From positions 1-35,894 of IMG/VR virus record IMGVR_UViG_3300020213_000070: a stretch of DNA of 35,894 bases; one strand, 5' to 3'. This DNA is from a virus. Of this stretch, positions 3,203 through 13,702 are shown in pieces (within the stretch, counting starts at the first letter, position 1; every line of letters begins with the position of its first letter). The translations under genes and the position numbers were made by a program. The notes below the pieces were generated by a model. The model did no database searches and was not told the origin of the DNA. It saw only the letters and a program-made list of their open reading frames with translations.

Positions 3203-3745
3203 ATGAAAAAGGTTTGCACCAAGTGTAAAAAAGAACTCTGTTTGGTTAATTTTCGAATTAGGACAGATAGACCATCAAAAGCACGAGCGTCTTGGTGCAA
3301 GGATTGTGTCAATAAGGGCACGTTTGACTTTAGGGCAAAGAATAGAGAATTTTGCAACGCCAGAGTTAGATTTTACAATTCACTAAAACCTAAAAATCTT
3401 AACTGGGTCAGAGACAGAAAGTTACCAACAGGATGTAACCACCATAATTGGAAAGGAGGATTAACAAAGCTAAGTGAAAAAATACGGAAAAGCTGTAAGT
3501 ATCAAAAATGGCGAACCGCAGTTTTCATTAGAGATAATCACACCTGTGTCTTGTGTTTTAAAAGGGGAGGAACCCTTAACGCAGACCACATAAAAAGATT
3601 TTGCGATTATCCTGAATTACGCTTGGAAGTTTCAAATGGCCGTACTTTGTGTGTGCCGTGTCATAAAAAAACCGATACTTGGGGGAGAAAAAAACAAGTT
3701 TGTATCGTCACCTTGCCCGTGTTGCAGAAAACTCGCTCAACGTAA
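3203..3745 (+). CDS. HNH endonuclease with N-terminal zinc ribbon
   Basis: 180 aa. The N-terminal CTKCKKEL...ASWCKDC is a four-Cys zinc ribbon common in phage HNH proteins. The C-terminal FIRDNHTCVLC...LNADHIKRF...GRTLCVPCHKKTD is a complete HNH nuclease core with the catalytic DH and two CxxC zinc pairs. It probably nicks or cuts DNA as a free-standing homing-type endonuclease. It has its own leaderless promoter and low resemblance to its neighbours, consistent with an independently moving gene. Confidence 0.85.
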   Translation: MKKVCTKCKKELCLVNFRIRTDRPSKARASWCKDCVNKGTFDFRAKNREFCNARVRFYNSLKPKNLNWVRDRKLPTGCNHHNWKGGLTKLSEKIRKSCKYQKWRTAVFIRDNHTCVLCFKRGGTLNADHIKRFCDYPELRLEVSNGRTLCVPCHKKTDTWGRKKQVCIVTLPVLQKTRST

Positions 3746-4180: not shown

Positions 4181-4558
4181 ATGAAAAAAGTAAAGAGACA
4201 ACACAATCAAAAAGACTGCGACAAATTACTGAGTCCTATTTTAGTAAAATTCAAGCCTGTCTGTTTGTTGTGTGGAGGCAGAACTCAAGTGGCACATCAC
4301 CACGTTCATAAGAGTAAGAGTTTGGCACTTCGATACGATTTTGAAAATCTTATAAATCTATGCAATGGGTGTCATTTTAAACTACACCACAACGAAAGTT
4401 ATTGGGCTTCACGAGTGCTCCAAATAAAAGGAATGAAGTGGTTTGTTGGTTTGGAAAAAAGAAAGGGAATATTGATGGTTGGAACACTCAAAATAAACTA
4501 CAACGAAGTATATGAAAAACTCCTCAATATCTTAAATGGACAAACTTTTCCCAGTTAA
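4181..4558 (+). CDS. HNH-type endonuclease, NinG-like zinc core
   Basis: 125 aa. CLLCGGRTQVAHHHVHKSKSLALRY...NLINLCNGCHFKLHHN gives two CxxC pairs around an HHH motif, as in NinG/HNH-family nucleases. The spacing of metal ligands and the catalytic His pair looks complete. The C-terminal about 50 residues are not recognisable. It starts 3 nt after the preceding stop and is probably co-translated with it. It could cut branched DNA (NinG-like) or act as a homing nuclease; the sequence does not separate these. Confidence 0.75.
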   Translation: MKKVKRQHNQKDCDKLLSPILVKFKPVCLLCGGRTQVAHHHVHKSKSLALRYDFENLINLCNGCHFKLHHNESYWASRVLQIKGMKWFVGLEKRKGILMVGTLKINYNEVYEKLLNILNGQTFPS

Positions 4559-4594
4559 GTAATTGACGCAAAGATAATTGAGTACACAAATAAG

Positions 4595-4603
4595 CTATCC
4601 ACA
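4595..4603 (+). promoter_or_regulatory. TATCCACAG box upstream of the sRNA promoter
   Basis: CTATCCACA followed by G. The same box lies 18-19 nt before the -35 of two other promoters (5237 and 11913). It resembles a DnaA box; it could be a binding site for an activator or for DnaA. Confidence 0.45.
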
Positions 4604-4613
4604 GGTGTGTGAT

Positions 4614-4641
4614 TTGCAAGCCGTTGTAGAGTTGGTATAAT
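4614..4641 (+). promoter_or_regulatory. promoter of a structured small RNA
   Basis: TTGCAA (4614-4619), 16-nt spacer, TATAAT (4636-4641), with extended -10 TG at 4633-4634 (TGGTATAAT). No ORF starts near the predicted start site (about 4648), so it should drive the RNA described next. Confidence 0.7.
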
Positions 4642-4647
4642 TACAGA

Positions 4648-4758
4648 GGTTAAATTACATTAAGATAATTTAGGAAAGAACACAGTCTTGGGGGAGTGAG
4701 CGAAAGCTCAATGTGACTTAATGCACATAATCGCTCCTCCAATAGTGTGTTTTTTTTG
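4648..4758 (+). ncRNA. putative phage small RNA: three-way junction ending in a terminator
   Basis: Starts about 7 nt after a good promoter and ends in a run of T residues. Pairings seen: closing helix AACACA (4679-4684) with TGTGTT (4746-4751), continued by TTGGGGGAG (4688-4696) with CTCCTCCAA (4734-4742, one G-U). Inside are two helices, TGAGC-GAAA-GCTCA (4697-4710, a GNRA tetraloop) and ATGTG/CACAT (4711-4728). The closing helix followed by T residues is also an intrinsic terminator. No ORF of note lies within it. It matches no RNA family I know; it could be an antisense regulator, a protein decoy or a leader remnant. Exact ends are estimates. Confidence 0.65.
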
Positions 4759-4764
4759 TTTCTT

Positions 4765-4914
4765 AGTCGCTGGGGGGTTTAACTGGAGCGACTTTAATAT
4801 AAACCAGTAACCGTTGTGGTGTGTCGCCTAAAACAGACACCGAGACTCATCGTAATGAAGTCCACAACTCTCTTACCGATGTTTTGTTTGTAGCACTTCG
4901 CTAAAATAAAACAT
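4765..4914 (+). ncRNA. second cluster of strong RNA hairpins in the gene-free region
   Basis: Four helices follow the first RNA. (a) AGTCGCT/AGCGACT, 4765-4793. (b) A three-way junction closed by GTTGTG (4813-4818) with CACAAC (4863-4868), holding GTGTC/GACAC (4821-4840) and GACTCAT/ATG-A-AGTC (4844-4862). (c) ATGTTTTGTTT/AAATAAAACAT with an inner AGC/GCT, 4879-4914. No ORF covers it. No clear separate promoter is seen, so it may be read-through from the upstream one or the leader of the gene at 5040. From 4915 to 5039 I see only AT-rich sequence and no further strong structure. Confidence 0.5.
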
Positions 4915-5039
4915 AACTTACTTTCTTGTATAAGACTGTGGGGGTAGGGGGGCTGTAACAACTCAATCTTTCGTAATAAAGTTTTAAACTATATAAATCT
5001 AATTAGTATCAATACAATAGTTCTTTAAAGGTTAGACTT

Positions 5040-5234
5040 ATGGAAATAAACATACAAAAATACCTTGAGCGATTCACAATCAAATATGAAATGACTTTAC
5101 TCCCTCCCCAATGGGAAGCTCTCCGAGTTGATAAGTGTCCCTTTTGTTGTAATAAAATATATAAGTCATTAGACGGGAAGCTAATCTATTGTAAAAGTAA
5201 AAAGCACGGAAAGTTTTTTATGAAGAAGAAATAA
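5040..5234 (+). CDS. small zinc-ribbon protein (64 aa)
   Basis: 64 aa with CPFCCNKIYKSLDGKLIYCKSKKHGKFF: a CxxC pair and a later C/H pair that could form a zinc ribbon. Basic C terminus (KKK). A weak AAAGG lies upstream of the ATG. It is isolated between the RNA region and the strong promoter at 5255. Possibly nucleic-acid binding; no family named. Confidence 0.6.
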   Translation: MEINIQKYLERFTIKYEMTLLPPQWEALRVDKCPFCCNKIYKSLDGKLIYCKSKKHGKFFMKKK

Positions 5235-5236
5235 AG

Positions 5237-5245
5237 TTATCCACA
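5237..5245 (+). promoter_or_regulatory. DnaA-box-like TATCCACAG site
   Basis: Exact TTATCCACA, 18 nt upstream of the -35 of the replication promoter. The same arrangement is found at 4595 and 11913. It could bind host DnaA or a phage activator. Confidence 0.5.
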
Positions 5246-5254
5246 GTTATGACA

Positions 5255-5283
5255 TTGACATCATTCTCAACAGGGTATATACT
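5255..5283 (+). promoter_or_regulatory. strong consensus promoter of the replication operon
   Basis: Perfect TTGACA, 17-nt spacer, TATACT (5278-5283). Predicted start near 5290, giving a leader of about 120 nt before the first ORF at 5412. As the best sigma70-type promoter here, it probably drives the ERF region and much of the small-gene array. Confidence 0.85.
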
Positions 5284-5289
5284 CTAAAA

Positions 5290-5411
5290 AGACAGGCGAT
5301 TACTTGGTTCAGACTGAGTAACCCGTACGTCACGACAACCTATTAGCAACCAGCTTATCGGTTGTCGCCTCCCCTTACTGATAAGCGAGGGAAGGCGATA
5401 GCCACAACTTT
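5290..5411 (+). promoter_or_regulatory. structured 5' leader, riboswitch-like
   Basis: Pairings seen: CGACAACC (5333-5340) with GGTTGTCG (5360-5367); CGCCTCCCCT (5366-5375) with AGGGAAGGCG (5388-5397, one mismatch). The loop of the first holds CTTATC (5354-5359) and the loop of the second holds GATAAG (5380-5385), which are complementary, so the two hairpins could kiss. AGGCGA (5294-5299) can instead pair with TCGCCT (5365-5370), breaking both. Mutually exclusive helices in a leader suggest regulation of the operon. It matches no riboswitch class I can name. Confidence 0.55.
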
Positions 5412-7579: not shown

Positions 7580-7735
7580 ATGAACCTATACAAAGTAACC
7601 TTTATAAACCAAGAGACAGGAGCTTGCGCAACGAGCTATGTCCTTGCTGCGGGCTTAGAACAAGTGGAAAGTGAATACGCGGATATTACAAAAATTGAAC
7701 CACTTACTCCGCTAGATGATTTAACAGATAAATAA
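7580..7735 (+). CDS. small array protein (51 aa) with LTDK tail
   Basis: 51 aa, MNLYKVTFINQETG...DITKIEPLTPLDDLTDK. The first half looks like a small beta-hairpin domain; the final DDLTDK is encoded by the recurring linker DNA. It follows four tandem TAAC units and a TAGAT-ATG start. First member of the small-gene array. Function unknown. Confidence 0.6.
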   Translation: MNLYKVTFINQETGACATSYVLAAGLEQVESEYADITKIEPLTPLDDLTDK

Positions 7736-7993
7736 AAATATATGAGCATAGAATATTGCCACAAGTGTGATAGCCAAATAGATACAGACTTTGATGCCGA
7801 GCATTTTGACGAAGAAGTAAATGGTTGTGAAGCTACTTTTGAAGAAGTAGACGAAATCCCACAGCTCAAGGGAACGCTAGAAGCACTTAATGAGTTGTCG
7901 ATAATTAAAGAATAACTATATGACCCACGAAGAAACAATAAAACGAATACAAGAGTCAGAAGAAACAAAGACATTTATAGGGGGATTATTAAC
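7721..7993 (+). repeat. 273-bp duplication, copy A
   Basis: Nearly identical to 10458-10730 (one difference noticed, C versus T in the second ORF). It carries a 57-aa gene, a 31-aa gene start and the linker before them. Confidence 0.9.
7742..7915 (+). CDS. small acidic zinc-binding-like protein (57 aa), copy A
   Basis: 57 aa: MSIEYCHKCDSQIDTDFDAEHFDEEVNGCEATFEEVDE... with CHKC and a later GC that could complete a zinc site. Very acidic middle. An identical copy sits at 10479-10652, so it has been duplicated recently as part of a 273-bp unit. Preceded by the linker AACAGATAAATAAAAATAT. Function unknown. Confidence 0.62.
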   Translation: MSIEYCHKCDSQIDTDFDAEHFDEEVNGCEATFEEVDEIPQLKGTLEALNELSIIKE

Positions 7994-10178: not shown

Positions 10179-10472
10179 ATGAACGACTGGATAGTAAAAA
10201 TAGTAGATGTTGGTTATAAACTAGAAAAGGATATTTATATCTTTACTCGAACACAAAACGGGGGCAGGAAAATGTTGGGTGGTGAAATAATAACTGACGG
10301 AGTTATCCCCCCAAAACCCACATTGTCTTTAACACACCAACAAATGATTGCTTTAGTAAACGCTCTAAACAAAGAGGGAGTGAGCCCGGAGAAAGAATAT
10401 ACAGCCGGCAAACTTGAGGCAACAGAAAAACACCTAGAAGATATGAGGAAGATAGCATTAACAGATAAATAA
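10179..10472 (+). CDS. array protein (97 aa), unknown
   Basis: 97 aa: beta-rich first half (MNDWIVKIVDVGYKLEKDIYIFTR) with GGRKMLGGEIITDG, and a helical second half (LTHQQMIALVNALNKEG) common to small phage proteins. It ends IALTDK, produced by the linker. It begins 2 nt after the upstream stop. Confidence 0.62.
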   Translation: MNDWIVKIVDVGYKLEKDIYIFTRTQNGGRKMLGGEIITDGVIPPKPTLSLTHQQMIALVNALNKEGVSPEKEYTAGKLEATEKHLEDMRKIALTDK

Positions 10473-10730
10473 AAATATATGAGCATAGAATATTGCCACA
10501 AGTGTGATAGCCAAATAGATACAGACTTTGATGCCGAGCATTTTGACGAAGAAGTAAATGGTTGTGAAGCTACTTTTGAAGAAGTAGACGAAATCCCACA
10601 GCTCAAGGGAACGCTAGAAGCACTTAATGAGTTGTCGATAATTAAAGAATAACTATATGACCCACGAAGAAACAATAAAACGAATACAAGAGTCAGAAGA
10701 AATAAAGACATTTATAGGGGGATTATTAAC
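10458..10730 (+). repeat. 273-bp duplication, copy B
   Basis: Copy of 7721-7993, offset 2737 bp. It ends inside the 31-aa ORF, after which the two sites diverge, so a recombination joint can be placed near 10730. Confidence 0.9.
10479..10652 (+). CDS. small acidic zinc-binding-like protein (57 aa), copy B
   Basis: Identical in sequence to the 57-aa protein at 7742-7915 (CHKC start, acidic middle, LKGTLEALNELSIIKE end). Two identical copies 2.7 kb apart in a phage genome imply a recent event or ongoing gene conversion. Confidence 0.62.
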   Translation: MSIEYCHKCDSQIDTDFDAEHFDEEVNGCEATFEEVDEIPQLKGTLEALNELSIIKE

Positions 10731-11912: not shown

Positions 11913-11921
11913 TTATCCACA
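11913..11921 (+). promoter_or_regulatory. DnaA-box-like TATCCACAG site
   Basis: Exact TTATCCACA, 18 nt before the -35 of the promoter below, as at 5237. It begins with the base after the stop codon of the preceding gene. Confidence 0.5.
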
Positions 11922-13508: not shown

Positions 13509-13676
13509 ATGGAAGCAAGGAAATTCACCCTTGAGCAACTAAAGGCAATGGCATACGACTCATTGGTAAACCTCGAACAAAACCAAGCAAACCTAAGGGC
13601 AATCAACCAAGCTATAGCAGATTTCAAACCAGAAGAACCAATTGAAAGCACGGGGGAAGTAAAGGCAAAGAAGTAA
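13509..13676 (+). CDS. small helical protein (55 aa), unknown
   Basis: 55 aa: MEARKFTLEQLKAMAYDSLVNLEQNQANLRAINQAI is a single amphipathic helix; the tail is EST.EVKAKK. It looks like a small coiled-coil protein. It has its own promoter, and the next promoter follows 26 nt after its stop. Function unknown. Confidence 0.55.
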   Translation: MEARKFTLEQLKAMAYDSLVNLEQNQANLRAINQAIADFKPEEPIESTGEVKAKK

Positions 13677-13702
13677 AATGTATAAAAGAAATATCATCTT
13701 GC

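Follow-up and report, generated by a model that had tools for sequence, protein, structure and literature searches.

The window analysed here, that is, the whole stretch of 35,894 nucleotides from the virus record IMGVR_UViG_3300020213_000070, contains a gene-free gap of 481 nt between an HNH ORF (4181-4558) and an ORF at 5040-5234. Within this gap, on the plus strand, lies a promoter (4614-4641) composed of a weak -35 box TTGCAA (4614-4619), a 16-nt spacer and TG-G-TATAAT, in which the TGG just before the -10 box TATAAT (4636-4641) gives an extended -10; overall it shows 10/12 consensus matches. The extended -10 promoter TGGTATAAT ends at 4641, 33 nt ahead of a long stem, P1, and this distance is within the limit of ~60 nt used for a sigma70-type promoter in the class of elements described below. 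A leader strand (4648-4664) comes next and consists of a segment a, GGTTA (4648-4652), a gap AATTA and a segment x, CATTAAG (4658-4664). The 5' arm of P1 (4675-4696) includes the outer strand AAAGAACACA (4675-4684) and the inner strand TTGGGGGAG (4688-4696), and its 3' arm (4734-4757) the inner strand CTCCTCCAA (4734-4742), the outer strand TGTGTTTTTT (4746-4755) and a run of eight T's (4750-4757), which together are predicted to form an intrinsic terminator. The pairs AAAGAACACA/TGTGTTTTTT are separated by a 3x3 internal loop from the pairs TTGGGGGAG/CTCCTCCAA, so that P1 has 19-20 pairs, where the class has at least ~15. Inside P1, two hairpins abut directly: H1 (4697-4710, TGAGC-GAAA-GCTCA, with a GNRA loop) and H2 (4711-4728, ATGTG-ACTTAATG-CACAT), the 8-nt loop of which contains x', CTTAATG (4717-4723). 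The junction strand J31 (4728-4733) contains a', TAATC (4728-4732), the pairing partner of the leader segment a.

The RNA of positions 4648-4758 folds with -39.4 kcal/mol against -19.9 +/- 3.0 kcal/mol for dinucleotide shuffles (z -6.4, 0/200), and the opposite strand folds to -27.4 kcal/mol only. The fold, the promoter and the terminator features of the window are solid. An earlier sequence-only reading of this DNA had already noticed the promoter, the space without a gene, the two adjoining hairpins and the terminal T run, and all of them were recovered; its closing helix of "6 plus 9 pairs" is right as to a long closing stem and needs a small correction in the counts, which are 10 outer and 9-10 inner pairs. 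That reading left out the 5' leader, which appears to be part of the structure. In addition, a perfect complement of 9 nt to CACAGTCTT (4681-4689, in the 5' arm of P1) occurs ~240 nt downstream, namely AAGACTGTG at 4932-4940, which adjoins the G-rich stretch GGGGGTAGGGGGG.

The first ORF downstream (5040-5234, plus strand) encodes 64 amino acids with a CxxC motif, gave no Pfam or PHROG match and stands at the start of the early region. It is followed by a second, separate leader on the plus strand (5255-5403), which has a promoter TTGACA-17-TATACT (5255-5283), GCTTATC (5353-5359), a loop GATAAGC (5380-5386) and a stem GGTTGTCGCCT (5360-5370)/AGGCGATAGCC (5393-5403); it is a weaker match to the class and is without a T run. 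An upstream GACAACC is able to pair with the 5' arm of this stem, and a 26-aa ORF begins just after the leader. A gene for an ERF recombinase is found ~1.1 kb downstream of the window element. Furthermore, the DnaA-box-like TTATNCACA occurs at 8 sites in the window (e.g. 5237-5245 and 11913-11921) against 1.9 expected, and 0/100 shuffles reach 8. The minus-strand ORFs 7636-7974 and 10235-10711, which are probably spurious, have a long identical start in common, which points to duplicated DNA in this region of small early genes.

Searches by sequence gave very little. The statement that the structure matches no recognisable RNA family holds for Rfam, which has no match at gathering score in the window element and none at E up to 5 for 4400-5300; over 14 related loci, Rfam found nothing but a tRNA. 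The sole near-identical sequence found is that of a sister phage (IMGVR_UViG_3300020195_000062, hereafter G001), in which P1, H1 and H2 are 100% identical, the promoter is kept and the differences are confined to the promoter spacer and the flanks. Classical covariation is thus unavailable for the window copy, because the structure of G001 is wholly identical, and this comparison is uninformative on the compensatory changes that had been proposed as a check. A covariance model built from one sequence (R1) was run on 1.8 Mb of related loci plus 35 records and detected only the sister phage, as did an exact pattern search. DNA similarity searches gave no match in phages and chance-level matches only in plasmids, and the neighbouring HNH and 64-aa ORFs used as queries gave no useful relatives. 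The nearest named TerL relatives include Nitratiruptor phages (36%), and a class scan of three named phages gave three weak matches only. As no homologue beyond the sister phage was found, the search was made by architecture instead.

About two dozen loci of uncultivated phages were found that have the same design in unrelated letters: a promoter, a leader strand, a long stem P1, often with T's at its end, and a loop complementary to the leader. The first scan of all fetched loci looked for a long stem around exactly two hairpins and then T's, ranked by energy per base, and it set six loci, all from TerL-related phages, clearly apart (L018, L035, L042, L048, L057 and L024); the window structure fits the same description. 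L024, a poorer match to the outline, was excluded from later tests. L012 and L192 came from a second scan, and L195 and L102, the latter a phage from the ERF set, from a descriptor in which no T run was required. The first set was selected on the T run, and the thresholds of the analysis were chosen while looking at the data; several members have no T run, and among those found without the T criterion (n=14) runs of four or more T's occur on the 3' arm in 10/14 and on the 5' arm in 2/14. The sizes of the parts agree among members, with 4-5 pairs in H1, 5-6 pairs in H2, mostly 8 nt in the H2 loop and ~5 nt in the junction strand, and in most of them a promoter-like -10 sits 30-70 nt upstream. 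Since the members have no alignable sequence and were collected by structure, the class is one of shared design, and common descent is not claimed; for relatives closer to individual members, too few sequences were found for classical covariation.

The genes close behind these elements encode DnaD-like helicase loaders (PHROG 5708, 8489, 2514 and 7498) or, in L042, a DNA primase. In L012, L018, L035, L042 and L192, 7-30 nt separate the end of the structure from the first gene of the replication block, and a replication start codon lies within ~40 nt downstream in most members, a criterion that was kept out of the fold definition. A search for relatives of the L018-type replication protein led to 69 loci. 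In this family, 13/20 metagenomic loci have leaders that score higher than each of 500 dinucleotide shuffles of the stretch concerned, and in these 13 the leader-stem-loop arrangement sits just ahead of the start codon. The arrangement is also present in L284, an independent MAG contig with a close replication protein; 0/8 tested Firmicutes prophage relatives beat their shuffles, and the arrangement is absent from the remaining 13 genome-collection relatives. Many leaders of the family are simpler, that is, they have no H1 and H2 and carry the complement in the loop of P1 itself, such as L217 (GCTTTGCG/CGCAAAGC for leader and loop) and L218 (ACCTTGCG/CGCAAGGT).

Elements also occur in other settings. 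The G017 genome holds two, L193 on the minus strand (13621-13686) and L192 on the plus strand (3301-3392), and the class is therefore not restricted to one per genome. Elements on the plus strand of L032 (7726-7800), L044 (8384-8454) and L033 (4510-4573) lie some kb downstream of the terminase gene and have leader complements 9-10 nt long; L032 and L044 have the stem sequence in common, with leader and loop changed together. Moreover, the minus strands of L034 (1818-1871) and L037 (4555-4608) carry a simple 54-nt hairpin terminator, 8 nt after a TGCTATAAT promoter and 26 nt ahead of a 75-aa ORF, in which the leader pairing is absent.

A feature that recurs among the members is the complementarity between leader and loop, which was first spotted by eye and tested afterwards. 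A leader complement to the loop of at least 6 nt is present in 21/23 members, against 2/23 in each of two controls (30 nt downstream, and same-sense matches), and its mean length over the 23 elements is 7.1 against 4.25 for shuffled leaders. Some single-member p-values are weak, and the strength is in the whole set. In the window, x is the exact complement of 7/8 bases of the H2 loop (x'), and a pairs with a', one G-U included. The score for a:a' plus x:x' gives p = 0.020 for the window only; shuffled leaders reach the 12 leader pairs in 42/1000 (p ~0.04), and in the RNA prefix x:x' has a pair probability of 0.37. The window-only class scan was reached by 28/300 shuffles and is not significant, in a version of the scan prone to missing short matches. 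The window's own support for the alternative fold predicted in this way is modest. It is by its matching architecture, together with a leader complement of modest significance, that the window element would be assigned to the class.

The complementarity is predicted to give two competing folds. The RNA prefix that ends before the 3' arm of P1 folds to a leader:loop hairpin, and in the full RNA P1 forms and the leader-loop pairing is gone. Two helices make up the early fold of the three-way-junction members, and in them a-gap-x pairs with x' in the H2 loop and a' in the junction strand. This two-helix antiterminator fits 12/12 such members, with a mean score of 29.7 against 14.5 with swapped leaders; only 1/132 leader swaps between members reaches the lowest true pair score, and AAA separates the helices in five or six of these members. 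Minimum-energy folds of the prefix contain leader:loop/junction pairs in 11/12, the exception being L042, and those of the full length in 0/12; L193, L196 and L197, found later, have the same two predicted states. Because the linkers are often 0-3 nt long and P1 has 15-25 bp, leader pairing and P1 should on geometric grounds exclude each other within one molecule of the short-linker members. For the same reason, a cis pseudoknot with intact P1 was rejected as a general state, as such linkers cannot span the stem. An HDV-like ribozyme, suggested by the strand order X-P2-X'-P2', was also rejected, the simple members having no P3 or P4, and nothing was found in support of a group I or II intron, a pRNA or a 6S RNA.

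An RNA that lies ahead of a replication gene and, in an early fold, sequesters the 5' arm of its terminator looks like an attenuator, and in its predicted folds the window element has both an intrinsic terminator and a competing leader antiterminator. We consider it rather likely, from these predictions, that the window element works as a transcription attenuator close to its promoter, a bistable 5' leader that heads the phage early region; it is probably an RNA brake, earlier undescribed, rather than a free-standing small RNA. As the polymerase moves off the promoter, the segments a and x, within the first ~17 nt, would bind a' in the junction strand and x' in the H2 loop to give a metastable antiterminator hairpin, in the loop of which the 5' arm of P1 would be held. 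Completion of the 3' arm would then let P1, together with H1 and H2, displace the antiterminator and, with the T run, act as the intrinsic terminator. Whichever fold prevails while the polymerase is over the T run may then decide between a terminated RNA of ~110 nt and read-through; termination itself and the co-transcriptional formation of the antiterminator are here deduced from the folds. Candidate triggers are the translation of a leader ORF, found in many relatives, a protein, another copy of the RNA and the speed of the polymerase. Since the switch lies directly ahead of a replication gene in most relatives, it likely sets the timing or strength of expression of the replication or early operon. 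Against an attenuator in the window stand the moderate support for the alternative fold, a missing leader ORF and the next ORF, which encodes no known family and is 282 nt off, with no replication gene within ~40 nt.

This distance suits another explanation, a free stable small RNA that has its own promoter and terminator and acts in trans, either on a protein or on targets in the host or the phage, which is how the sequence-only reading understood the element. The compact stable fold and the T8 run agree with it, as does a window phage that has neither a close downstream gene nor a leader ORF. However, the same design elsewhere ends 7-30 nt ahead of a replication start codon, the leader evolves to match the loop, a feature that a free small RNA does not need, and no target was identified, so that this explanation is unlikely. 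What stands of the earlier view is a phage RNA that is structured and has promoter and terminator of its own; a free-standing small RNA in the roles offered for it, antisense control, sequestration of a protein or host takeover, is unsupported as worded, the comparative evidence pointing to a leader attenuator. The terminated transcript of ~110 nt is still predicted, and such an RNA might have a role in trans as well. Another possibility is that the HNH gene (4181-4558) is simply followed by a strong intrinsic terminator, in which case the promoter-like site and the leader complement would be there by chance. The element is indeed located downstream of that ORF, the region has many promoter-like sites of similar quality (9 against 6.6 expected) and the window-only leader statistics are weak, but the three-way junction, the 8-nt H2 loop, the 5-nt junction strand and the promoter spacing closely match those of the members, and the promoter is of the extended -10 type and is retained in G001; a plain terminator is therefore very improbable.

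A leader-peptide attenuator, in which a ribosome on a short ORF would melt P1 and let the polymerase pass, with re-initiation at the replication gene, is suggested by the relatives. In 15/22 members the structure is crossed by an ORF with an ATG start, against 4.0 expected from shuffles, the stops of these ORFs cluster just ahead of the downstream start, and in L102 the leader ORF is continuous with the DnaD-like gene, which suggests a coupling to translation there. Short ATG-started leader ORFs are found, for example, in L195, L238, L227 and L048, and their peptides have no obvious similarity. No such ORF exists, however, in L018, L035, L217, L223, L239, L284 or the window, where all three frames are closed; the model fits many relatives and not the window copy, for which it is hardly to be expected, and leader translation therefore cannot be the general trigger.

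Several known systems resemble the proposed attenuator in part. In the plasmids pT181 and pIP501, a leader ahead of the replication gene picks either an intrinsic terminator or a competing fold, and this choice, made upstream of a replication gene, is what the elements have in common with attenuators of the pIP501 type. Premature termination in the pIP501 repR leader lowers the synthesis of the replication initiator (PMC4981023) and is the closest described logic. pIP501, however, has a leader of 329 bp and, as a separate molecule, an antisense RNA of 136 nt, RNAIII (PMC4981023), whereas the leader strand here has ~30-60 nt and the competing pairing joins the 5' end to the loop and junction of the terminator itself. 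An antisense promoter scan of the minus strand of the window found weak promoter-like sites only, at 4983 and 5168 (best 9-10/12). Trp-type leader-peptide attenuators choose between terminator and antiterminator with the strand order 2:3 / 3:4 and stall codons; that choice and the short leader ORFs of many relatives are similar, but no stall codons were recognised here, the window has no ORF and the strand order is 1:3 / 2:4. The put RNAs of HK022, which are also structured RNAs directly behind an early phage promoter, act on the polymerase, suppress later terminators and are not terminators themselves, whereas the present structure closes with a T run and competes with a leader pairing. The pRNA of phi29 has a three-way junction and intermolecular loop pairing, of which the latter is potential here, and serves in packaging, but the present elements have no Rfam match, are linked recurrently to replication genes and not to packaging, and end in a T-run terminator. 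Finally, Rli51 is described as a 5'UTR attenuator of a bacterial virulence gene that releases a trans-acting RNA (PMC11394854). The likeness is a terminated leader that can also serve as a small RNA, with a putative trans role here, and the difference is that Rli51 belongs to an unrelated bacterial virulence gene.

With a linker of 0-3 nt, leader and loop of one molecule could not pair across a full-length P1, and pairing between molecules is thus possible. It is conceivable, if rather improbable, that the exposed loop of a terminated RNA pairs with the leader of the next transcript, blocks its antiterminator and forces termination. If this were true, each phage lineage would have a same-strand, sequence-specific RNA counter of its replication transcripts, a control of copy number or superinfection without an antisense gene. 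Apart from this, the elements would constitute a class of RNA switch common to many uncultivated phages and known by its design and not by its letters. As sequence-based family libraries miss this class, other fast-evolving control RNAs of phages may be missed too. In addition, it would offer a simple system of competing co-transcriptional folds in which both partners have been naturally replaced in sequence.
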